A DNA stretch of 23,276 nucleotides from the IMG/VR virus record IMGVR_UViG_3300033153_004956, positions 1 through 23,276 of that record; one strand, given 5' to 3'. The notes beneath the pieces were generated by a model. That model worked only from the letters and a program-made list of their open reading frames with translations, was not told where the DNA came from and made no database searches. The stretch is from a virus. The number at the start of each line of letters is the position of its first letter. The stretch's first letter is position 1. This document shows positions 4,193-20,245 of this stretch, one piece after another. The position numbers and the translations under genes are program-made.

Positions 4193-7100
4193 TCAATCCG
4201 AAATTTCTAGCGTACCAAAAATCCCTAAAATTGTACACGGCAATGGACCTGAATGAATCAATTCAATCCGACCATCCCCCCAACCTAACTGTGAAACCTG
4301 GATGTTCCCCGTATAAAGTGGGATTTCTTCACCGAGAGCAACATCCGAAAATCTGCGAAAATCTATAACCTCGTTATTGATCTTCAATCCCGACGTTTCA
4401 TGAACTGACACGAAGACCTCAGCCCATTTTTTAGGTAGGCCGGCGGTTGTTCCCCTTTCTGAATTTATGATGGGCTTCATGGTAACGAGTTTCGAGGTAT
4501 AGGGAAGCCCGACCCGGATTTCGCTGGCAGCAGGATCAATGGCGACAGCCCCACTGGCAACCTCCGTTTGGTCATAAACCACCCCATCAGCGACGATATC
4601 AACCGTTTTACCTTCAAGATGGGCAAGCCCGGACACGGAACTCACCGCAACCCCGGAATAGATCAGGCCCGAATCGACCATCATGTCCGGGTCCATGTAT
4701 TCGATGTAACGACGTTCCGCAAACTCACTGGCGGGCGGAGCGAAATTAGCGGTTGATCTGGCGACGTTCGAGATTTTAAGCGCGTCCAACCAACCACCAT
4801 AATATGTACCTCCAGCAGCCGCGTTTCGGCCAATGGTTAGATCCCCGGTGAAATTCTGCATATTATGTGTAATTGCTTCCGTAACCAGCAATTCACCATC
4901 CAAAAAAATATAATAATTAGAACCATCGCCCACCACCCGGATATGTTGCCACGTTGCTGCCGTAAGAACTCCGGCAGCCGTATCGACGATTTGACTTGTG
5001 GTATCAGTAACGATAAAGGAAATATGGCCATTCAGCCAAAGGAATATATGGAACCAATGGTCAGAGTCCGTAGTTTGGGCGATAACACCGGCAGATGCCA
5101 AGGTGCTTTGATAGGTCCAAAACTCTATCGTGAAAATATTGTCAGCGCTAAAATCAAAATCGGCATGATCATGGATGGTCAAATAACCCTCGTCAGCAAG
5201 CGCAAACAGACCGGAGGACCCGCCAAACTTGCTCCGAGCCGTATCGATCTCAGCACCTCCATGGGCGGTAACAACATGGGCAGAGGCGCTTGAGTCAGGG
5301 AACGACGTGCTTTCATCATCACCGTTCATCCTAAGCAAAAGGGCAGTGTCCGAGTCAATGTCAAGCACCGTTCTTTTAACCGTGGCCCAAACCTCGTTGA
5401 AGCTGTCTGTCGGATCTGGAATAACGGCCACACTTTCGATTTTGCCATCCGTGATATGCCGACCCCAGCCCACAATTTCCTCGGGCCTCATGTAGGTCAT
5501 AGCCAAAAGAGCCCCATCGGTTCTGACGCTCCACAGGATGGAGTTTGGCTCTTGTTGCCATGCGCTGTACTTGATACCGCCCAGGGTCATATGGTCGGCT
5601 AACAGGGAAAGATCTGGCGCTACATATCCTTCATCAAAAGAATTCGGGTCATAGGTCAATTCCCGGAGTTTACGGCCCCCTTTTTGCCAATAAAGAAGGC
5701 TGTTGTTTACGCGAATTGGATCTACGTTTTTCGCACCTATAGCCATTCCTGGCCGGACCCGAACATTGGTTGGAGAAATAAAGTCGTCCATGCCACCGGT
5801 CATTTTATAGGTTCCGTCGCCAGTTCCTAAAACCAATTCCCTCAAGGCCCCCAACCACAGGATTCTATTGCTGGCCGGGATGGTATATATGAATGCGTCT
5901 GCATCATCTGCGCCAGCCTTAAAATTCTCGTAGTCTCCCTTTTGTGAAGCCCATGCCGTTTGGGGTTGGTTATTGTTTGCTACAGCAACAAGGCTTTCCT
6001 CGTTAAAGGCCCCCGCCGATGGATACCCATTGACCCCTGACCAAGCCCCTTCCTGATATTTAGTGGAAGCAGCGACATCGCCTAATGTGACAATAACCGT
6101 AGCGGTTGCAATTCGCACAGTGGTGACAGCGGTTATTTTAACATACCCCCACGCCCCATTGATGTAGAGTCGAAGCAGCGCCCCCACATGACCGCCCTGG
6201 AAGAAGTCCCCGACCGACGTCAAATCAATATCCCCGACAGCAGCGCTTGGGGTGAATACTATGTCATCTTTCACGTCAAGCCATGGGCCGTTTGTGTGAT
6301 CCACGACATCAAGAGACCATGCGGCGTGCCCGGTCCTTGTGAGTTTTCGCCATGCGTGATCCGGGTGGAAAATATACATCGTATCAAAAGATTGAAAATA
6401 CTTGAGAAGCGGCAGATCTTCTTCCAGGTATGGCGTGGCTATCTCATAAGGTGTAGTATGAGGGTATTGTGAGGCCGGCGGAACAAAGTCGTCCGTTGCC
6501 ACAGCGGCGTCCGTTATTCGAAATTCGTCCATCCAGCCGTAAAAATAAGCCGTCCCCGCGAAGTCCCCACCGATAATAAAGTCACCCGTGAAGTCCTGTA
6601 GATGGCTTGTAATGCCCTGCCCCACCTCTAAATGCCCGTTGACGAACAGAAAGTAACTGGTGCCGTCCCCCACGACCCTAACATGGGTCCAACCTAATGA
6701 GGTGATTGGCATTGTGGTTGTCGTTAAGGTTTGCCATGCTCCGGCATTTCCTACCCCGAATGTTAAATTCTGGGAGCCGTCATGGTCAAGATATACGCCG
6801 TTGTTGGCATCTGTGGAATGTGAGAATATTGTTCCAGCGGTTGAGGAGTACTTAATCCAACATTCTATCGTGAAAATGTCATCAGCGCTAAAATCAAAAT
6901 CGGCATGATCCGGGATAGTTAAATGGCAGGCCAGAACTCCACCATAAAACAGGCCCGACCCACTTCCGAACTTTTGCTCGGCTGTGTCAATCTGCGTTAT
7001 GCTTTCAGCGGTTACAGTATGCCCCGAAGGGCTTGAATCAAGGAAAGTCTGGCTACCGTCCATTCCGTCCATGTGAAGAAGCAACACATCATCCGGTTCA

Positions 7101-7399
7101 TCTTCCTGAATCTGGCCATGGTTCATGAAAAACCGCATGTATTTATGGCCGGCTTCGATGATATAGGCTTGTTCGGTGGAAAAGACAAAAGGGATCAGCC
7201 GAGCTTTCCGGGTTTCATCTCCTTGAGCCACGACGTAATGCAGACCATCACGACGGGCAACACCGCCATATGGGAGGATTATGAAATTTTCGAGAGATTC
7301 AAGAGCGTTGAAATATTTAGAAAGGTCCGACCTCCCGAATAGGCGTGGGCTCCATTCCCCGGCAGTGAAATTTTGTTGGATTGGTCGTAATTGCATCAT
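4193..7399 (-). CDS. Tail nozzle / tail tubular protein B-like, with two inserted LamG-like domains
   Basis: 1068 residues. The N-terminus ('QQNFTAGEWSPRLFGRSDLS', then 'YGGVARRDGLHYV') is typical of podophage tail nozzle proteins (T7 gp12 role), which close the tail tube. The backbone resumes with 'PYLEEDLPLLKYFQSFDTMY' and 'IFHPDHAWRKLTR', and near the end has 'LAHLEGKTVDIVADG'. Two LamG/concanavalin-like domains interrupt it, at about residues 103-308 and 665-870. Each has 'TIPDHADFDFSADDIFTIE'-type strands, 'W.H.RVVGDG..Y..F..G' and a closing 'GW.D..ri....'. Such beta-sandwiches often bind carbohydrate, so host-surface contact is plausible (inference). The start at 7399 overlaps the upstream stop (ATGA); the next ATG at 7396 is equally possible. 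The protein is much longer than the usual family member because of the insertions. Confidence 0.8.
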   Translation of the reverse strand: MMQLRPIQQNFTAGEWSPRLFGRSDLSKYFNALESLENFIILPYGGVARRDGLHYVVAQGDETRKARLIPFVFSTEQAYIIEAGHKYMRFFMNHGQIQEDEPDDVLLLHMDGMDGSQTFLDSSPSGHTVTAESITQIDTAEQKFGSGSGLFYGGVLACHLTIPDHADFDFSADDIFTIECWIKYSSTAGTIFSHSTDANNGVYLDHDGSQNLTFGVGNAGAWQTLTTTTMPITSLGWTHVRVVGDGTSYFLFVNGHLEVGQGITSHLQDFTGDFIIGGDFAGTAYFYGWMDEFRITDAAVATDDFVPPASQYPHTTPYEIATPYLEEDLPLLKYFQSFDTMYIFHPDHAWRKLTRTGHAAWSLDVVDHTNGPWLDVKDDIVFTPSAAVGDIDLTSVGDFFQGGHVGALLRLYINGAWGYVKITAVTTVRIATATVIVTLGDVAASTKYQEGAWSGVNGYPSAGAFNEESLVAVANNNQPQTAWASQKGDYENFKAGADDADAFIYTIPASNRILWLGALRELVLGTGDGTYKMTGGMDDFISPTNVRVRPGMAIGAKNVDPIRVNNSLLYWQKGGRKLRELTYDPNSFDEGYVAPDLSLLADHMTLGGIKYSAWQQEPNSILWSVRTDGALLAMTYMRPEEIVGWGRHITDGKIESVAVIPDPTDSFNEVWATVKRTVLDIDSDTALLLRMNGDDESTSFPDSSASAHVVTAHGGAEIDTARSKFGGSSGLFALADEGYLTIHDHADFDFSADNIFTIEFWTYQSTLASAGVIAQTTDSDHWFHIFLWLNGHISFIVTDTTSQIVDTAAGVLTAATWQHIRVVGDGSNYYIFLDGELLVTEAITHNMQNFTGDLTIGRNAAAGGTYYGGWLDALKISNVARSTANFAPPASEFAERRYIEYMDPDMMVDSGLIYSGVAVSSVSGLAHLEGKTVDIVADGVVYDQTEVASGAVAIDPAASEIRVGLPYTSKLVTMKPIINSERGTTAGLPKKWAEVFVSVHETSGLKINNEVIDFRRFSDVALGEEIPLYTGNIQVSQLGWGDGRIELIHSGPLPCTILGIFGTLEISD
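5124..5170. repeat. Intragenic repeat, LamG copy 2 (partner 6864-6910)
   Basis: A 47-base stretch that matches 6864-6910 in the same orientation with three mismatches. Both encode the same strand of a LamG-like domain, around 'DHADFDFSAD.IFTIE'. This shows that the two domains in the nozzle protein arose by duplication or exchange sequence by recombination. Confidence 0.85.
6864..6910. repeat. Intragenic repeat, LamG copy 1 (partner 5124-5170)
   Basis: Partner of the repeat at 5124-5170, 47 bases with three mismatches, within the first LamG-like domain of the nozzle gene. The rest of the two domains is recognisably related at the protein level but more diverged in DNA. Confidence 0.85.
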
Positions 7400-7974: not shown

Positions 7975-8451
7975 CTATTTGGGTGTTTCTGCACTTGAAA
8001 CAATGCTTCCTAAAGAAACATCCGGCTTTGCTGCATCAAACTGGCTGAAATCCCAGACAATCAATTCCGGGATGTTGGATTTTAAGATTTCAGCTTTGTT
8101 TTTGTAGTAGTATTTCAGGCAGGCTTGGACCCACGGGAAAACTGTTTTGATTGCCGTTTTTGTTTCTTCCGGAGTGTCGTCCATGGCCAGCATCGCCTGA
8201 AATGTTTGCTGTGTACCGGGGTCATAATGTTCATAAATATAGGCACCGACATCCTGATTTAACGCCCCTGCGATCAGCGTCCGTTTTTCGGCCAAGCTCG
8301 GGCTTTTAGCGGTGAACAATTCCCGCGCCCTGTATTGCTGGACTGCCTCCTCACCTTCACCTATTGCGACTTGCTCAATGCAAAATGGCACCATGAATTT
8401 AGTATTGTCATATTTCTCAACTTCCGGTTGGTTCATGTTGTAACTGTACAT
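7975..8451 (-). CDS. Hypothetical protein overlapping the DGR reverse transcriptase gene
   Basis: 158 residues, acidic, beginning MYSYNMNQPEVEKYD. The middle reads 'LIAGALNQDVGAYIYEHYDP' and 'FQAMLAMDDTPEETK', then a Lys/Tyr-rich helix 'CLKYYYKNKAEIL'. It looks like a small helical phage protein and could be a fibre-assembly chaperone, since it follows the fibre/DGR cassette and precedes the tail genes; I do not recognise the family. Its first 35 bases overlap the 3' end of the reverse transcriptase gene in another frame, with an AAAGGGG ribosome site about 7 bases before the ATG at 8451. A second ATG lies at 8436. It is not a good match to Avd, the DGR accessory protein, which is small, basic and usually sits between VR and TR. 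Confidence 0.7.
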   Translation of the reverse strand: MYSYNMNQPEVEKYDNTKFMVPFCIEQVAIGEGEEAVQQYRARELFTAKSPSLAEKRTLIAGALNQDVGAYIYEHYDPGTQQTFQAMLAMDDTPEETKTAIKTVFPWVQACLKYYYKNKAEILKSNIPELIVWDFSQFDAAKPDVSLGSIVSSAETPK

Positions 8452-9499
8452 TTGCGGCCCCTTTCAAATATGGATTTTTGATTTTCAAACGCTGGCATGC
8501 ATCAGCAATTTGGGTTTCTGTTTTCGTTGCGTACTTCCGCCATAGATTTCGACCATTCCCGTAGAGGAACCACCCGAAATAGCTCATGACGGCACACACA
8601 TCGCTGCCATTGGCTCTATTTTTCTGTACAATTTTATTAGATCTTTGACTATATGCCGATGCAATGCGTTTTCGGATCAGGGTGTGACTCCCGTAAAACC
8701 GGTAGCCTAAGAAGTCAACGCCCCGCACTTTTGTCGGGAAAACCTGCCAGTTGCCTTTGACATCCAAGTGCAGATTGTCTTTGAAGTACACCTGGATTTC
8801 TCGCAATAAAGAATGCAGAGACTCCTTATCATGATACATGATCACGATATCGTCACAGTATCTTGAATAATACCGCAGGCCCTTTTCTTCTTTTGCCCAA
8901 TGATCAAAATACGCGAGATACAGGTTTGCGAAAAACTGGCTGAGGTAATTTCCGATAGGCACACCCGGAGAACTGTCAATAATTTCATCCAGTAGCCACA
9001 GGGTGTCCGAACATTTGATTTTCTTCCTGATAATTGCCTTCAGGATGTCGTGATTAATGGACGGATAGAACTTTCGAACATCCAGCTTTAGACAATACCT
9101 GGTCCCCGGTTTATCTTTCAAAAATCGCTTCATCCGCCGAACCCCATCGTGAATCCCGCGACCCTTCATCGAAGAGTAGGTATCCCGGATAAATAGATTC
9201 ATCCAAATGGGTTCCAGAATGTTCATAATGCAATGATGGATGATCCGATCCGGATAATAAGGCAGCTTGGCGATATCTCGCAGCTTGTTGCCTTCAACCC
9301 GCTGGAATCGTTCATAAGGCGCGTTCCTGAATGTCTTATTCTTCAACATCTCGTGGATCTCGTTAACGTATTTTTCCGGGTTTTCATCGACCATGACCAC
9401 TTCCCGATAAAACCTTTTTCCGCGTCTGGCATTTTGGTGAGCATCCAGAATGTTTTCCCGGTCGTAAATCTTCGAATACAAATTCCTATATCGTTTCAT
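8417..9499 (-). CDS. Diversity-generating retroelement reverse transcriptase
   Basis: 360 residues. It copies the TR RNA into cDNA with errors at adenines, which then replaces the VR. Motifs in order: 'SSMKGRGIHDG' (about 109-119), 'YCLKLDVRKFYPSI' with catalytic Asp140, 'IGNYLSQ' (182-188), 'YCDD' (214-217, the catalytic Asp pair) and 'VDFLGYRF' (261-268). The IGNYLSQ segment is the key one: DGR reverse transcriptases carry [I/V/L]GxxxSQ where group II intron and retron enzymes carry QGxxxSP. There is no maturase, endonuclease or thumb extension of the intron type. The gene starts 108 bases downstream of the TR, and its 3' end overlaps the next gene. Start is the ATG at 9499; no strong ribosome site is visible (GGGGG lies about 14 bases upstream). 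Confidence 0.95.
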   Translation of the reverse strand: MKRYRNLYSKIYDRENILDAHQNARRGKRFYREVVMVDENPEKYVNEIHEMLKNKTFRNAPYERFQRVEGNKLRDIAKLPYYPDRIIHHCIMNILEPIWMNLFIRDTYSSMKGRGIHDGVRRMKRFLKDKPGTRYCLKLDVRKFYPSINHDILKAIIRKKIKCSDTLWLLDEIIDSSPGVPIGNYLSQFFANLYLAYFDHWAKEEKGLRYYSRYCDDIVIMYHDKESLHSLLREIQVYFKDNLHLDVKGNWQVFPTKVRGVDFLGYRFYGSHTLIRKRIASAYSQRSNKIVQKNRANGSDVCAVMSYFGWFLYGNGRNLWRKYATKTETQIADACQRLKIKNPYLKGAANVQLQHEPTGS

Positions 9500-9606
9500 A
9501 GTGCTTGTGTTGACCCCCAGGTGTTCGGTTGCCCTACCAACCTGTAATGGGATACGTTATTTGTTCCACCAAGTGGTGAGGTTTCGAGCGGACGGAAAGA
9601 CACAAG

Positions 9607-9734
9607 AAGCTGCCCGACTGCCAATATTCGCATTGCGATTCGACCCCGTGTTATTCGTATTGCGATAAGCGAACCCCGCAATCGCGCCATTATTCAGGTT
9701 GCCCCCTGACAGGAGCGCCTGCTAACCGGCAGAA
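9607..9734 (-). repeat. DGR template repeat (TR)
   Basis: 128 bases that align with the VR at 9827-9957, with one 3-base gap near the 3' end (coding sense). From 9616 to 9734 there are 19 substitutions. Eighteen are at T on the plus strand, that is A in the coding-sense TR: 9619, 9625, 9627, 9633, 9640, 9649, 9654, 9655, 9658, 9660, 9682, 9690, 9691, 9694, 9699, 9707, 9720 and 9723. The VR bases opposite give 11 A-to-G, 4 A-to-C and 3 A-to-T changes. The only other substitution is at 9667. Read in the VR frame the TR has nine Asn (AAY) codons, typical of TRs because AAY can mutate to many residues without giving a stop. It also holds one in-frame TAG (9721-9723). Confidence 0.95.
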
Positions 9735-9767
9735 ACCGCCCAAAACCCAAAGCCCTGAGCCCGCGTG

Positions 9768-9816
9768 CGTGTTGCGTTTTGTCGTGCTGCGTTTTGCGGA
9801 CTCGTGTTGCATTAAA
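9768..9816 (-). repeat. Three related 14-base motifs in the VR-TR spacer
   Basis: On the plus strand the motif CGTGTTGCGTTTTG (9768-9781) is followed by CGTGCTGCGTTTTG (9783-9796) and a more diverged CGTGTTGCATTAAA (9803-9816). They lie between the end of the target gene and the TR. Known DGRs need sequence just past the VR, often a hairpin, for efficient homing. I see no good hairpin here, so these repeats are a candidate for that role or for binding by the RT complex. Confidence 0.6.
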
Positions 9817-9824
9817 AACCATTA

Positions 9825-11102
9825 TCAAGCTGCCGCCCGACCGCCAAGACTCGCACTGCGATACGACCCCGCGTTAGCCGCAATGCGATCAGCGAACCCC
9901 GCAAGCGCGCCAGCATCCAGGCTGCCCCCCGACAGGAGCGCCCGCAAACCGGCAGAACTGCTCGCATAATAATAATCAGTCATGTATGTTGTGGACCCAC
10001 CCGCCGCAACTGACGGCAGGAACGTCCCTGGGTGCAACGCCGATTGGTAACCGTTCGATAACGGCAGATCAATTCCCAGGTCCTCATAATCCGTCGAATC
10101 ACCATCATCATCCCAATCGGCGGGATTGTTGCTGATAAACACATTTGCATCAGTTAGCGGATCACCCACGGACTCAATTTTAATTCCATCGACCCATTTC
10201 CAGATATGCCCGAAAGGGTTTTCGATGCCGCGAAAGCTGTTCGCTACAACGATCGTTGGTGTTCCGGAAAAATCATAGGCACATCGCAGACCGGAATCCG
10301 CATCTCCCCAAGTGATTGATCCCGACTGATTCCCGAGTGTTTGCGTGATCCCGGATTTACAGCGTTTCGCTAAATCCCAGGCCCCGCCCTCTGTATACCC
10401 CGGCAAAGCCGATTGGCTGTTCCAGGTTGCGAATTCAGTCAAATACAGCATCAAAATTGCGTGATCTGACCAATATCCTTGTGAATGAAAAGGAGCGTCA
10501 ACCGTGCATCCAGCCCGAAGCTCTGTGCGGCTGATATAGGTCATGGGGAGGTATCCGGCAACGGAATGGATTTTATCGCCGGCGGTGTACAGACTGGAGC
10601 CTGTGCCGTCCACGTATGCGCTGACAGAATCGTCATAAAGGACGCCTTCAAAAGCACCGATGTATTTGTGGTCCGCTAAAGTTCCGCCCTCCCAAAACCA
10701 GGGATGGATGGTCGAAAGAACTACGGAAGCGTCTGATTTTGTGAAGTGAAAAGACCCTTGTCCAACCAATAAATATACATAGTTACCATCGGTCACATGG
10801 ATATATTCGAACTGTGCAGCTTGCACATGCACCTGTCCATCCGTGCCATCGATATTCGAAGCCGTACCATCCGACTTTTTCGTGCTGTCATCCGCACCAA
10901 GATAATACTGAAACTCTTTTGAGGCGTTCAGCACGCACCGTTTCATTTGTTGTTGAATAGGGAAATCCGCATAATCGAACGGGATGAACACGCCACCGGT
11001 TAGGATAATTCCTTTTGTCATCACTGGAGACGACTGGCTGGTATCCCATCTGACGCCATAAGCTAACGTATTTACAGTGTATTTCTTATTAACGAATGCC
11101 AT
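9825..11102 (-). CDS. DGR target: variable tail-fibre / receptor-binding protein (C-type-lectin-like end)
   Basis: 425 residues from the ATG at 11102, preceded by GGGGGG and 5 bases; an in-frame upstream ATG at 11162 lies inside the previous gene and is unlikely. The N-terminal half is a probable virion-anchoring and beta region. The second half has patterns typical of DGR target proteins: 'YIGAFEGVLYD', 'YLPMTYISRTELRAG', 'DHAILMLYLTEFATWNSQS', then 'RGIENPFGHIWKWVDGI', as in the C-type-lectin fold of Mtd-like and formylglycine-enzyme-like targets. The last 44 residues, about 382-425, are the VR, ending exactly at the TGA. Residues differing from the TR translation sit on 'GSLDAGALAGFADRIAANAG' and the following 'SYRSASLGG'. 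By analogy with BPP-1 it binds the host receptor and is varied to switch hosts; the target ligand is unknown. Confidence 0.9.
   Translation of the reverse strand: MAFVNKKYTVNTLAYGVRWDTSQSSPVMTKGIILTGGVFIPFDYADFPIQQQMKRCVLNASKEFQYYLGADDSTKKSDGTASNIDGTDGQVHVQAAQFEYIHVTDGNYVYLLVGQGSFHFTKSDASVVLSTIHPWFWEGGTLADHKYIGAFEGVLYDDSVSAYVDGTGSSLYTAGDKIHSVAGYLPMTYISRTELRAGCTVDAPFHSQGYWSDHAILMLYLTEFATWNSQSALPGYTEGGAWDLAKRCKSGITQTLGNQSGSITWGDADSGLRCAYDFSGTPTIVVANSFRGIENPFGHIWKWVDGIKIESVGDPLTDANVFISNNPADWDDDGDSTDYEDLGIDLPLSNGYQSALHPGTFLPSVAAGGSTTYMTDYYYASSSAGLRALLSGGSLDAGALAGFADRIAANAGSYRSASLGGRAAA
9827..9957 (-). repeat. DGR variable repeat (VR)
   Basis: 131 bases at the 3' end of the target gene, matching the TR at 9607-9734 apart from template-adenine positions, one other substitution (9890) and one extra GCG codon close to the stop. 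The 3' end in coding sense is GC-rich (GGTCGGGCGGCAGC before the TGA), as expected for the site where mutagenic homing starts. Identity falls off right after the stop codon on one side and at 9957 on the other. Confidence 0.95.
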
Positions 11103-11734: not shown

Positions 11735-12016
11735 TTAAAAACTCAGCCTTGCAAGGATGGTTCCCGCGCTATACCCGCCAGTTTTAACGCCAATCCGGTA
11801 GATCCAGCCCCGCTCTATTTCTTCGCCTGATTCTTGTTTGTCCGCCGTGTACTCTTTCACGTCTTTCCAGAGAGCTCCATTATCAATGGACCTCTGGACG
11901 GTTACCGTATCCCCGGAAATACCAGAGATCGACACGTTGAACTTCCCGAAAATGGCCATCTCATCCGACCACACATTTTCCGCCGTTATTGTTTTTGAAA
12001 CTGATCCTATTGTCAT
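11735..12016 (-). CDS. Small beta-rich structural protein, hypothetical
   Basis: 93 residues starting MTIGSVSKTITAENVWSDEM. Alternating hydrophobic and polar residues ('GKFNVSISGISGDTVTVQRS', 'GWIYRIGVKTGGYSAGTILA') suggest a single small beta-sandwich. This type of short protein with 'V.vQRS.D.G..W.dV..yT' is common among phage head and tail decoration or fibre proteins. It lies 10 bases upstream of the signal-peptide fibre gene. The ATG at 12016 has an AGAGG site. No specific function can be assigned. Confidence 0.65.
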   Translation of the reverse strand: MTIGSVSKTITAENVWSDEMAIFGKFNVSISGISGDTVTVQRSIDNGALWKDVKEYTADKQESGEEIERGWIYRIGVKTGGYSAGTILARLSF

Positions 12017-14474: not shown

Positions 14475-15128
14475 TTATCCGAACAATCTTAATTGATCGC
14501 CCTTGCCGGTGCTACCCTTATACAGATTGCATTGTCGACAGAGACATTGTGTGTTTTGCTTAGTATGATTCCCACCCTTACTCAATGGTACGATATGATC
14601 AAGGTTTGGGTAGAGTGAATGCCATCGGTTAAAATCTGGTCTCGTTTTACGGCCACAATTTTGACAAATATAGCCATCACGTTTCAGAACTTCAACAGGA
14701 TCAAAGCTTTCAGCCTTCACACCCGCTTTTTGTGATCTCCGTTTATGGGCGGATATTCTGCTTACGCTTTTCCCATTTGGAGATTTCCAATATTGTTTGA
14801 TCTTGTTTACGTTGTCTTTGCAGTACTGTTTTCTATATTCTCTGAGCTTATCTTTATTCGCATCCCGATAATCATCCATCCTAATGGCTATTCTCTCTTT
14901 ATTATTTTCCGCCCATTGCCTATAACGTTCCGAATACTCTTCTTTATGGCCTGCTCGAAACTTTCTTACCCTTTCTGATATAGTTGGCTTATTAACCTTG
15001 TAATATCCCTTGTTATATTCTGTCCTGCAACCCTTACACCAAGGGTTAAGGCCATCTTTATACCGGCTTCCCTTACAAAAAGCTTCTATGCCTTTTTCAA
15101 CCCCACATTTCGTACATGTCTTTCTCAT
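14475..15128 (-). CDS. HNH endonuclease with N-terminal zinc ribbon (copy 2)
   Basis: 217 residues, complete. The zinc ribbon 'CTKC...CKGC' is followed by a long basic linker rich in Tyr/Arg/Lys, then the HNH domain 'CQNCGRKTRPDFNRWHSLYP', 'NLDHIVPLSKGGNH', 'NTQCLCRQCN', ending 'GKGDQLRLFG'. The C-terminal 75 residues are closely similar to the HNH proteins at 1860-2450 and 17209-17769, so the three are paralogues that spread within this phage. It sits between the hypothetical gene at 15165 and the capsid gene and likely cuts related phages that lack it. No intron is seen. Confidence 0.9.
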   Translation of the reverse strand: MRKTCTKCGVEKGIEAFCKGSRYKDGLNPWCKGCRTEYNKGYYKVNKPTISERVRKFRAGHKEEYSERYRQWAENNKERIAIRMDDYRDANKDKLREYRKQYCKDNVNKIKQYWKSPNGKSVSRISAHKRRSQKAGVKAESFDPVEVLKRDGYICQNCGRKTRPDFNRWHSLYPNLDHIVPLSKGGNHTKQNTQCLCRQCNLYKGSTGKGDQLRLFG

Positions 15129-17208: not shown

Positions 17209-17769
17209 TTAAAATAACCTGAGTTGATCACCTTTTCCGGTGTTATGCTTGGTCATATTACATTCACGGCAAAGACACTGCGTATTCGCCTTTGAATGAT
17301 CGCCGCCCAGGCTCAAGGGCACTATGTGGTCAAGGTTCGGATAAAGCGGATGCCATTGATTGAAATCCGGCCTTGTCTTCCTCCCACAATTTTGACAGAC
17401 ATAACGGTCTCTCTCAAGGACTTTAATTGGGTTAAAATTTTTCACTGTGGCGCCTCGTTTTAGGGCTCTGCGTTTTTGCCAAGCTTTGCGGCTTGTGGCT
17501 TTGCCTGCTTCGGTCTGGCTGTATCGCTTCTGGCGGTCAGAAATCTTTTGTTTATTATCCTTCCTATATCGTTTGCCCCGTGCGGCTATCTCTGCTTTAT
17601 TATCTTGATAGTATTGCTTCTTCCGTGCGGTTATTTCTGCTTTATGATCTTGGGAGTGTTGTTTTTGACAAGATCTGCATTGCCATCGCCATCCATCTCC
17701 CCTGCTTCTATCTTTGTCAAATTCGCCTATATCTCTCAGCGTTTCGCATGTTGGGCAGTATTTTTCCAT
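17209..17769 (-). CDS. HNH endonuclease with N-terminal zinc ribbon (copy 3)
   Basis: 186 residues. Zinc ribbon 'CPTC...CRSC', basic linker with repeated 'RKQYYQDNKAEIAAR'-like units, then the HNH domain: 'CQNCGRKTRPDFNQWHPLYP', 'NLDHIVPLSLGGDH', 'NTQCLCRECN', ending 'GKGDQLRLF'. It is a paralogue of copies 1 and 2, with near-identical C-terminal blocks. It sits directly after the portal gene, between it and the small genes leading to the scaffold. The start is the ATG at 17769; no strong ribosome site is visible. Confidence 0.88.
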   Translation of the reverse strand: MEKYCPTCETLRDIGEFDKDRSRGDGWRWQCRSCQKQHSQDHKAEITARKKQYYQDNKAEIAARGKRYRKDNKQKISDRQKRYSQTEAGKATSRKAWQKRRALKRGATVKNFNPIKVLERDRYVCQNCGRKTRPDFNQWHPLYPNLDHIVPLSLGGDHSKANTQCLCRECNMTKHNTGKGDQLRLF

Positions 17770-17806: not shown

Positions 17807-18064
17807 TTATCCTGTCATCTTTTCCATAACTTCTGGCGGGAGATCTTTAACTGCAGCGGCCCCGTCCCTGCCTGCTTTCGCTGCGAGTACCGCTTGCTCC
17901 AGTTTTTCTTGTTTCGCCTGCGCTTCCGCTCTTGCCGCTCTGATTTCATCCTTTTCCTCTTTCGAGTTGATTAGCTTCGAGGGATATCCCATGACTTCCG
18001 CCACATGCACGGCGGTTTCGTCAAGCTTGAAATTATCCATAATGTCCGGCTTGAGCTCGGCCAT
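17807..18064 (-). pseudogene. Displaced C-terminal part of the portal protein
   Basis: The frame reading MAELKPDIMDNFKLDETAVH, then 'VAEVMGYPSKLINSKEEKDE' and a Gln/Ala/Lys helix, is the natural end of the portal. Removing one copy of the 17-bp tandem repeat at 18085-18118 joins it exactly to the portal frame ('EIEAINATLEAAGGMAELKP'), giving 539 residues, close to T7 gp8 (536). 'D.aV..vae..GyPskLi.s.ee' is the standard portal end. It may be translated separately if its ATG at 18064 is used, but that is unlikely to give a working protein. Confidence 0.85.
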
Positions 18065-19443
18065 GCCCCCGGCAGCTTCGAGCGTGGCGTTGATTGCCTC
18101 ATGGCGTTGATTGCCTCAATCTCTGTCACCCGTTGCGCTTTTGCCAGTGGGCTCTCATATTCGACCTTGACGCTCTCCGGGATCTCCACCGGAGGCTCTG
18201 GGAAAGCCCCGGCCCTGTTGAGCATATTGAATGTTGCCTCAATGATACGATCCAGGCCATGGAACACGATATTACCAAACGTAGGGCCAAGGAGCTGTTG
18301 AGCTAACTGGTATCGTCTCGCCACTTCATAAGCCGTCATTTGACCGGTTTGATCACGCGGTGGTATAAATTTGACCTTATCACCGTGGAAGATTTCCCGG
18401 ATCGAGGCTTTTAAATCCTCTTTTTTAACCCTGTTTTCTGAAAACTTAGCACCGGTAAGGATGGGCTTGAGGTTATTTTCTTTCTTGACGACCGTGAGGC
18501 CCCCAGGGGTCAATCTTACTGACCCGATCACACCTTGATCAACCATGGCAAGGGGTGGGAGGATTGCCAACGACCACTCTTTTAGCGCCAACTCGCTTGC
18601 CTTATGAATGGTTTTGATATCCGGTAACGCCGTCCAGCCAGGACCCCGGCCATAGCTCTCACCACTCTCTCGCCGCCAGGGGATGACAAAGTATCTGAAA
18701 TCATCATAACCACTTGTGCTCATAACAATCTTTTTTCTGACATCCACGTTGTAGCTTACAAACGGCTTTTGAGTCTCGTGATTCGCTCCAAACCAATCTT
18801 TGGGGAAGCAGGCGTGGAGGAACAAATGCATCTTAGCCGGGTTCTTTTCCGCGTCCTTCTTTATTTCGTCAGTGACCTTATCCGGCCATCGTTCAATGGC
18901 TTCCTGAGCGCGGATCTCAAATTCCCTAAATAGCCCCTGGACCCGGCCGTCGCGGCCCTCCATGATGGAGTAGGAGCCTGGAGGCATGGAAATAAAGTTG
19001 AACCCATTAAATCCGGGCTTTTTGAGCTCATTTTCCTCAACGAATAGAGCGCCGGTGCAGAATGTCACAAGATCGTTTAGAACCTCGATCCATTCTCCAG
19101 CGAAATTACTGTCCCGGAGATAGCCAAACTGGATTTGCTTGCATTCTTCAAGCCACTCCTGGACTTCCTTATCGTCGCTTAGGGTTCCGCCTACTTTGAG
19201 GCTGAACCAATCCATGCCCATTGATGTGAGATTGCCGTGTATCCAGGCTGCCAGGTCCTCAGCGGCCATGGTCGCGGTGCTGTCAAACATCTTTTGAGTG
19301 AGTTTGACCCCCGCTTCAACCTTGCCGACAATGGAAGCTTTCCGGAATACGATATTGTCGGCAATCTCACTCCATTGGGCATCCCAAAGAGACCGGTCGC
19401 TCTTGAGATTATCGTTGACTTTGCACAGCTCTTTTCCGTTCAA
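17971..19443 (-). CDS. Portal / head-to-tail connector protein (T7 gp8-like), C-terminus frameshifted
   Basis: 490 residues as it stands. The N-terminus and core ('LKSDRSLWDAQWSEIADNIV', 'MFDSTATMAAEDLAAWIHGN', 'FVIPWRRESGESYGRGPGWT', 'ALPDIKTIHKASELALKEWS', 'TAYEVARRYQLAQQLLGPTF') are typical of the podophage head-tail connector, the dodecameric ring through which DNA is packaged and ejected. After about residue 442 the sequence turns into non-native Ser/Pro/Trp-rich residues, because a perfect 17-bp tandem duplication (18085-18118) shifts the frame; the true end lies in another frame (17807-18064). The duplicated form would most likely not make a working portal. The start is the ATG at 19443. 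Confidence 0.88.
   Translation of the reverse strand: MNGKELCKVNDNLKSDRSLWDAQWSEIADNIVFRKASIVGKVEAGVKLTQKMFDSTATMAAEDLAAWIHGNLTSMGMDWFSLKVGGTLSDDKEVQEWLEECKQIQFGYLRDSNFAGEWIEVLNDLVTFCTGALFVEENELKKPGFNGFNFISMPPGSYSIMEGRDGRVQGLFREFEIRAQEAIERWPDKVTDEIKKDAEKNPAKMHLFLHACFPKDWFGANHETQKPFVSYNVDVRKKIVMSTSGYDDFRYFVIPWRRESGESYGRGPGWTALPDIKTIHKASELALKEWSLAILPPLAMVDQGVIGSVRLTPGGLTVVKKENNLKPILTGAKFSENRVKKEDLKASIREIFHGDKVKFIPPRDQTGQMTAYEVARRYQLAQQLLGPTFGNIVFHGLDRIIEATFNMLNRAGAFPEPPVEIPESVKVEYESPLAKAQRVTEIEAINAMRQSTPRSKLPGAWPSSSRTLWIISSLTKPPCMWRKSWDIPRS
18085..18118. repeat. Perfect 17-bp tandem duplication inside the portal gene
   Basis: TGGCGTTGATTGCCTCA occurs twice in a row (18085-18101 and 18102-18118). 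Since 17 is not a multiple of three, the second copy breaks the portal frame. Deleting either copy restores one continuous 539-residue protein. Confidence 0.95.
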
Positions 19444-19717: not shown

Positions 19718-20245
19718 CTATGCCTCTCCGTGAAGATAGTTGTAAGCATCTGTGTGGCTATTACAACCGGGCCACCCGTGTTCGACCTCAGCTTTCCAAC
19801 GGGCTATCACTGCATCCCTAAAACGCTTAAAGTAGCCAAGATGGGCCCGGCTCCGGTTGACCATAATGCGAGCCGCCCACTTCTTCCCTGCCTTATTCCA
19901 AACAACCCCAGTGATACCGCTTGTATTATTCTTAGATCTCCCGCTATTTCTTACGTTACATTGTGGTGTGACGTGCCGAATGTTTTTCCAACGATCGTCA
20001 CCCCTAACTCTGTTTTCATGATCACATTGATTCTCCGGGAAATAGCCTTCCATGTATAACCAGGCTAAGCGGGAAGCACGGAAAGGCTTACCATCGATCA
20101 TGATTCTGCGATAACCGCTTGGACTTATACCCCCAGCCTGTGAGCCCACCCAAACACCACCCCGAGAAACCCTCCAAACAAAGACCCCTGTTTCAGGATC
20201 GTAGTCTAGCAGCTCCCTTAATCTATCCTGCGTTAACTTTGCCAT
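19718..20245 (-). CDS. HNH endonuclease with AP2-like DNA-binding domain
   Basis: 175 residues and unrelated to the three zinc-ribbon HNH proteins. N-terminal 'LRELLDYDPETGVFVWRVS' is the usual start of HNH_3-type homing endonucleases. The catalytic part is 'QCDHENRVRGDDRWKNIRHV', then 'TPQCNVRN' (His of DH, Asn of KNI, His and Asn following). The C-terminus is an AP2-type domain: 'NNTSGITGVVWNKAGKKWAA', 'RAHLGYFKRFRDAVIA'. It sits between the large terminase and portal blocks, with only 6 bases between the terminase stop and this start, so its insertion left the operon intact. The ATG at 20245 has GAGGG upstream. Confidence 0.88.
   Translation of the reverse strand: MAKLTQDRLRELLDYDPETGVFVWRVSRGGVWVGSQAGGISPSGYRRIMIDGKPFRASRLAWLYMEGYFPENQCDHENRVRGDDRWKNIRHVTPQCNVRNSGRSKNNTSGITGVVWNKAGKKWAARIMVNRSRAHLGYFKRFRDAVIARWKAEVEHGWPGCNSHTDAYNYLHGEA

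Follow-up and report, generated by a model that had tools for sequence, protein, structure and literature searches.

We analysed a 23,276-base virus contig (IMG/VR record IMGVR_UViG_3300033153_004956), a fragment of a podophage-type genome that we call the window and to whose positions all coordinates refer, and found that it almost certainly carries a complete diversity-generating retroelement (DGR) of the avd-less lineage (lineage 3 in PMC7290462). More than 30,000 DGRs are known from metagenomes (PMC8144416), and this cassette belongs to the already known avd-less DGRs, a form that has been less studied. A prior reading of the letters alone had placed a target gene, a variable repeat (VR), a template repeat (TR) and a reverse transcriptase (RT) on one strand in that order in a podophage-type genome. 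All of these parts were found as stated, on the minus strand, and the podophage-type call agrees with the portal (Head-tail_con), capsid and tail tubular homologues in the window. To this the present analysis adds the lack of avd, a structured spacer RNA, a cassette-linked gene for a 158-residue protein, close relatives without the cassette, and an error pattern of the lineage.

Repeat pair, reverse transcriptase and target

On the minus strand the cassette runs from the target through VR and TR to the RT, with a spacing of only 91 nucleotides between VR and TR. Its parts are:

9825..11102, minus strand: DGR target, 425 residues, with a predicted C-terminal C-type-lectin fold (phrog_5302; AlphaFold2 model)
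9826..9957, minus strand: VR, the last 44 target codons, a 132-nucleotide ungapped repeat of TR whose 3' end is the putative initiation of mutagenic homing site (IMH)
9603..9734, minus strand: TR, whose 3' end is the putative IMH*; relative L002 is laid out alike
9722..9724, minus strand: in-frame TAG in TR (TTG in VR), with TGG at the same place in the L002 TR
8417..9499, minus strand: DGR RT, 360 residues, with IGNYLSQ and YCDD (Pfam RVT_1; phrog_1423; structure 8ub7; DGR clade)

VR and TR aligned in an ungapped register at an offset of exactly 223 nucleotides, and over these 132 nucleotides they were 83% identical with 22 mismatches. Nineteen of the mismatches fell at template adenines (12 A to G, 4 A to C and 3 A to T) and the remaining three at T; nine of the 28 TR adenines were unaltered in VR. 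The probability that at least 19 of 22 mismatches would fall by chance at 28 adenines among 132 positions is 2e-13 (hypergeometric), and a chance repeat was rejected as the origin of the pair. The sequence-only reading had counted 19 differences, 18 of them at A, with 27 template adenines and 11 A-to-G changes. The bias that it described held, as did its four A-to-C changes, three A-to-T changes and nine unaltered adenines, but its other counts were slightly low. Those counts fit a 3-nucleotide gap at the 3' end, since the VR and TR spans given there differ by 3 nucleotides; the ungapped register is backed by relative L002 (76% identical). Separately, the stretch between the target stop and TR (9735-9824, minus strand) holds repeated GCAAAACGCA/GCAGCACG-like units.

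The open reading frame and motifs of the RT are intact, with 76% identity to the L002 RT. Both IGNYLSQ and YCDD, pointed out previously, are present, the former being an instance of the DGR SQ motif (IGxxxSQ). The RT matched phrog_1423, a PHROG family of reverse transcriptases (E 8e-122), and among solved structures its best match was the BPP-1 RT, bRT (8ub7, E 9e-43), with the next RTs at 2e-18. We built a tree from BPP-1-type RTs, the RT of crAssphage LMMB as the lineage 3 reference (classed in PMC7290462), three group II intron RTs as the outgroup, and further RTs taken from genomes and viral contigs. Every DGR RT, that of the window included, lay on one side of the branch from the group II introns (support 100/100), and the window RT grouped with L002 and with the lineage holding crAssphage LMMB, apart from the bRT types (100/99). 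We read this tree for its main split only, because the outgroup was small, some branches were long and retrons were compared by profile only. A placement within group II introns or retrons had been named in advance as evidence against a DGR; the RT fell outside the former in the tree, and its match to the retron profile was far under the cut-off of that profile. Among loci with a related RT, 90 of 100 had a repeat pair in which template A accounted for 75% or more of the mismatches.

The start of the target at 11102 is backed by AAGGGGGG just 5' of the ATG, and the protein matched the PHROG tail protein family phrog_5302 (E 5e-64). An AlphaFold2 model built with 23 sequences had a predicted local distance difference test score (pLDDT) of 82 and a predicted template modelling score of 0.87. 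In a fold search the model came closest to TaqVP (5vf4), a DGR variable protein from Thermus aquaticus, with Z 23.9 and a root-mean-square deviation of 3.0 across 263 residues; TaqVP has 20% sequence identity to the target and a different genome context. Further matches at Z 10-11 were TvpA (Z 11.1), formylglycine-generating enzymes and Mtd (Z 10.3). Since the model matches TaqVP, TvpA and Mtd, VR, at the 3' end of the target gene, is predicted to lie within a C-type-lectin fold, like the VRs of other DGR targets. By comparison with BPP-1 Mtd, and from its position among tail genes, the target probably binds a host receptor.

A cassette with a structured spacer RNA and without avd

No Avd was detected in the window record with two Pfam models, one of which, the bAvd model, detected BPP-1 Avd in a positive control (E 2e-37). 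Applied to 12 more viral records of the lineage, the bAvd model likewise gave no hit; in two bacterial genomes of the lineage there was an Avd-like gene on another contig. The window thus has what defines an avd-less DGR, namely a target-TR-RT cassette without avd and an RT that groups with the lineage 3 RT of crAssphage LMMB. The DGR of that phage is itself ordered target-VR-TR-RT without avd and was assigned to lineage 3 (PMC7290462). Its target, a tail-collar fibre protein, is encoded close to a tail tubular gene, and the LMMB spacer matches the same RNA model as that of the window. It differs in belonging to another phage group and in its RT, which is 42% identical to the window RT. The L002 and L003 cassettes, on IMG/VR contigs, also have the gene order of the window, but in a different carrier phage (portal phrog_1497).

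Between TR and RT lie 103 nucleotides with motifs that are common across the lineage, and these encode a structured RNA:

9500..9595, minus strand: structured RNA between TR and RT, RT-17-like, the putative RT-recruiting and priming spacer (Rfam match, covariation)
9566..9579, minus strand: spacer RNA helix 1 (UCACC-ACUU-GGUGG), five pairs, three changed on both sides, with pairing in 94% of cells
9519..9543, minus strand: spacer RNA helices 2 and 3, around GGUAG and GAA, six of seven pairs changed on both sides

The window spacer matched the Rfam family RT-17 (RF03020) with 32.1 bits (E 3e-4 in a 591-base search), which is below the gathering score of 40.4; ten relatives scored above it, each directly upstream of an RT, among them members of the alignment that also holds the window. 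Across an alignment of 21 spacers, 9 of 12 pairs were altered on both sides, with 42 cells altered in this way against 11.6 expected in shuffles, and sliding the pairing partners lowered the proportion of paired cells from 88% to 24-50%. In the window, too, the helices are kept with compensatory changes. A covariance model built from the 21 aligned spacers scored the window at 67.6 bits (the window being in its training set) and located the corresponding site in 63 of the 68 lineage loci not used for training, including crAssphage LMMB. With a best E of 0.45, it gave no hit in 34 BPP-1-type loci, and none in three group II introns or three phage relatives free of DGRs. The covariation, that in helices 2 and 3 included, was repeated on the 63 non-training sequences, in which 135 cells were altered on both sides (43 in shuffles), in an alignment made with the model and so leaning towards structure. 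In L044-L123, too, an RT-17-like RNA lies immediately 5' of the RT.

In BPP-1-type loci the same place is taken by the Rfam family Phage_DGR (RF03022). The BPP-1 spacer folds, recruits the bRT-Avd complex and primes cDNA synthesis (PMC12875486). Given its corresponding position, the RT-17-like RNA should act likewise in the window, and we hypothesize, on this analogy, that it may make Avd unnecessary. The Rfam description of RF03020 says only RT-17 RNA, without the DGR label borne by RF03022, and no paper naming RT-17 RNA was found in our literature search, outside which the original description of RT-17 falls. A covariation-supported RNA module of avd-less DGRs would give a likely role to an orphan Rfam family and provide a concrete candidate for priming without Avd.

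In the mechanism that we propose, TR and the folded spacer would be transcribed as one RNA, whose spacer fold would recruit the RT and prime cDNA synthesis without Avd. The cDNA would bear errors opposite template adenines and then replace VR, and the altered tip of the tail protein would change the receptor bound by the phage. The BPP-1 system (mtd-avd-TR-brt) has much in common with this arrangement: adenine-directed differences between TR and VR, a tail-tip gene that ends in VR, a structured RNA between TR and RT, and a lectin-fold target. BPP-1 nevertheless has Avd, a Phage_DGR spacer RNA and a stem-loop after VR, none of which was found in the window, and the avd gene and RF03022 spacer that mark a BPP-1-type DGR are accordingly both missing here.

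Variation in relatives, error pattern and alternative readings

Comparing VRs across contigs with a common TR had been suggested together with the initial reading, and this was possible in relatives L006, L007 and L008, which have identical TRs and RTs 57% identical to the window RT. Variation was concentrated in VR. Between L007 and L008 the 95-nucleotide VR-TR spacer and the 1138 nucleotides from TR to the end of the RT were identical, and the VRs differed at 19 of 124 positions, 15 of them at template A, with only 3 differences in 900 positions upstream. Among the three relatives the target upstream of VR differed at 2-3 of 900 positions. In these cassettes VR has changed and TR has stayed the same, the pattern of one-way transfer from TR to VR, as judged from contig comparison. 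Four of the 19 differences between the two VRs (L007:1853-1976 and L008:5555-5678) are not at template A, and three of these are T-to-G changes in codons that also hold template adenines. A T-to-G change beside an A in the window (TR 9667) resembles them.

TR/VR pairs of the lineage (L002-L123) displayed a characteristic error pattern; 64 loci with a usable pair belong to one TR cluster. At template A before G, VR had G in 317 of 342 cases and was changed in 330 of 342. G was also found in 194 of 205 interior sites with changed adenines on both sides (106 of 112 distinct 13-mers) and in 87 of 92 four-fold synonymous sites. BPP-1-type relatives were changed at only 7 of 16 interior sites with A before G (p 2e-8). 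At the second A of AAC, A to C made up 6% of changes in the lineage. Its share was 41% at AAT, where the resulting amino acids are identical, and in BPP-1-type relatives it was 26% at AAC. The effect size is approximate, since selection on conserved glycines and shared ancestry bear on some of the counts and the BPP-1-type sample of AG sites is small. For bRT, A-to-C misincorporation is raised before C (PMC12875486), so that at AAC the pattern of the lineage is opposite to that measured for BPP-1. An apparent A-to-T rule at four-fold NAT sites was dropped, as one fixed CTA/CTT difference, located at the 3' end of the repeat, accounted for it. It is about an even bet that there are two kinds of DGR template RNA, one Avd-dependent with a Phage_DGR spacer and the other avd-less, with an RT-17-like spacer that takes the place of Avd when the RT is recruited and primed, and with an error code of its own (A before G almost always to G, A before C rarely to C).

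Several observations weigh against a complete and working avd-less DGR in the window. Three mismatches of its TR/VR pair are not at template A. No BPP-1-like stem-loop follows VR in the window; a small number of relatives, L046, L048 and L050 among them, have hairpins after VR, overall 14 of 130 against 4% in shuffles. A search of the collection for a second contig with the window TR, using a TR/VR pattern with N at each template A, returned none, so for the window copy we infer both activity and receptor switching. An unmutated copy of the part of TR that holds the in-frame TAG would truncate the target; either the TAG adenine, which is in an AG context, is nearly always changed, or homing tracts often stop before it. 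The record is also a fragment, and an unlinked Avd could lie elsewhere.

Some of these points would fit a DGR that was once active and is now decaying, in which VR keeps old changes and homing has ceased. The in-frame TAG comes with extra adenines in TR relative to L002, the stem-loop after VR is absent, and the unmatched TR leaves no population evidence for the window copy. Decay is nonetheless unlikely in view of the intact and conserved RT frame and motifs, the spacer helices maintained by compensatory changes in the window, and the recent VR change in the homologous cassettes L006-L008. Reliance on an Avd supplied by the host, or by phage sequence that the contig lacks, would agree with the fragmentary record and with the Avd-like genes on other contigs in the two bacterial genomes. 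We consider it improbable, because Avd was also lacking in the 12 further viral records and because crAssphage LMMB has an avd-less cassette of the same architecture (PMC7290462) with a spacer matching the same RNA model. An RT with another purpose (a defence RT, retron or group II intron) beside an incidental repeat is scarcely credible. The RT did have weak matches to several profiles of defence-associated RTs, group II introns and retrons, but these were far below the curated cut-offs, and the tree and the bRT structure match place it with DGR RTs; on these grounds a group II intron or defence RT identity was rejected. The A-biased repeat pair beside 90 of 100 relatives likewise argues for the DGR reading.

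A movable block among virion genes

The cassette lies within a movable insert, flanked and composed as follows in addition to the parts already listed:

11735..12016, minus strand: gene for a 93-residue protein of the virion cluster, upstream flank of the block, 75-78% identical in L021 and L025
11113..11724, minus strand: gene for a 203-residue fibre-type protein, the first gene of the block (PHROG baseplate/tail-fibre, E 2e-11 and 2e-5)
7975..8451, minus strand: cassette-linked gene for a 158-residue protein, overlapping the 3' end of the RT gene, with homologues after the RT in L002/L003 and L045
7396..7965, minus strand: tail tubular protein A, flanking the block downstream (PHROG tail protein, E 1e-50)

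Judged by virion genes, the closest relatives are L021-L025 (capsid 82-86% and tail tubular protein A 73-81% identical), all without a DGR. In these the 93-residue gene comes immediately ahead of the tail tubular gene, except in L022 and L024, where about 0.3 kb separates the two; the 203-residue fibre-type gene is missing at this place in all five, and neither RT nor target occurs anywhere in the 38.9-kb L025 contig. In the window 3.8 kb lie exactly between the two flanking genes, comprising the fibre-type gene, target, VR, TR, spacer RNA, RT and 158-residue gene. The G+C content of the block, 48.2%, is no different from its surroundings. In L002/L003 the target, RT and 158-residue gene recur as a unit (67%, 76% and 71% identity) in a phage with unrelated structural genes. 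With a clean empty site in close relatives, this shows that the cassette and its tail protein move as one unit among unrelated phages.

The 158-residue gene has its 71% identical counterpart directly after the RT in L002/L003, a 28% identical relative after the RT in L045, and a weak relation to the open reading frame after the RT in L004/L005. Its product had no match to any known family, and its structural model was poor (pLDDT 57). A role in fibre assembly is a guess; a disguised Avd is another candidate for this protein.

Elsewhere in the window, the tail tubular B homologue (4193-7399, minus strand) contains a pair of laminin-G/concanavalin-like lectin domains that may form a second adhesion site. 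The portal gene (17807-19443, minus strand) is split by a frameshift near 18109, either a sequencing error or real, and in L024 it is one open frame of 543 codons. Three related HNH-type endonuclease-like genes (1860-2552, 14475-15128 and 17209-17769, minus strand; 62-66% identical DNA) are scattered among the virion genes, with another possible HNH gene at 19718-20245.

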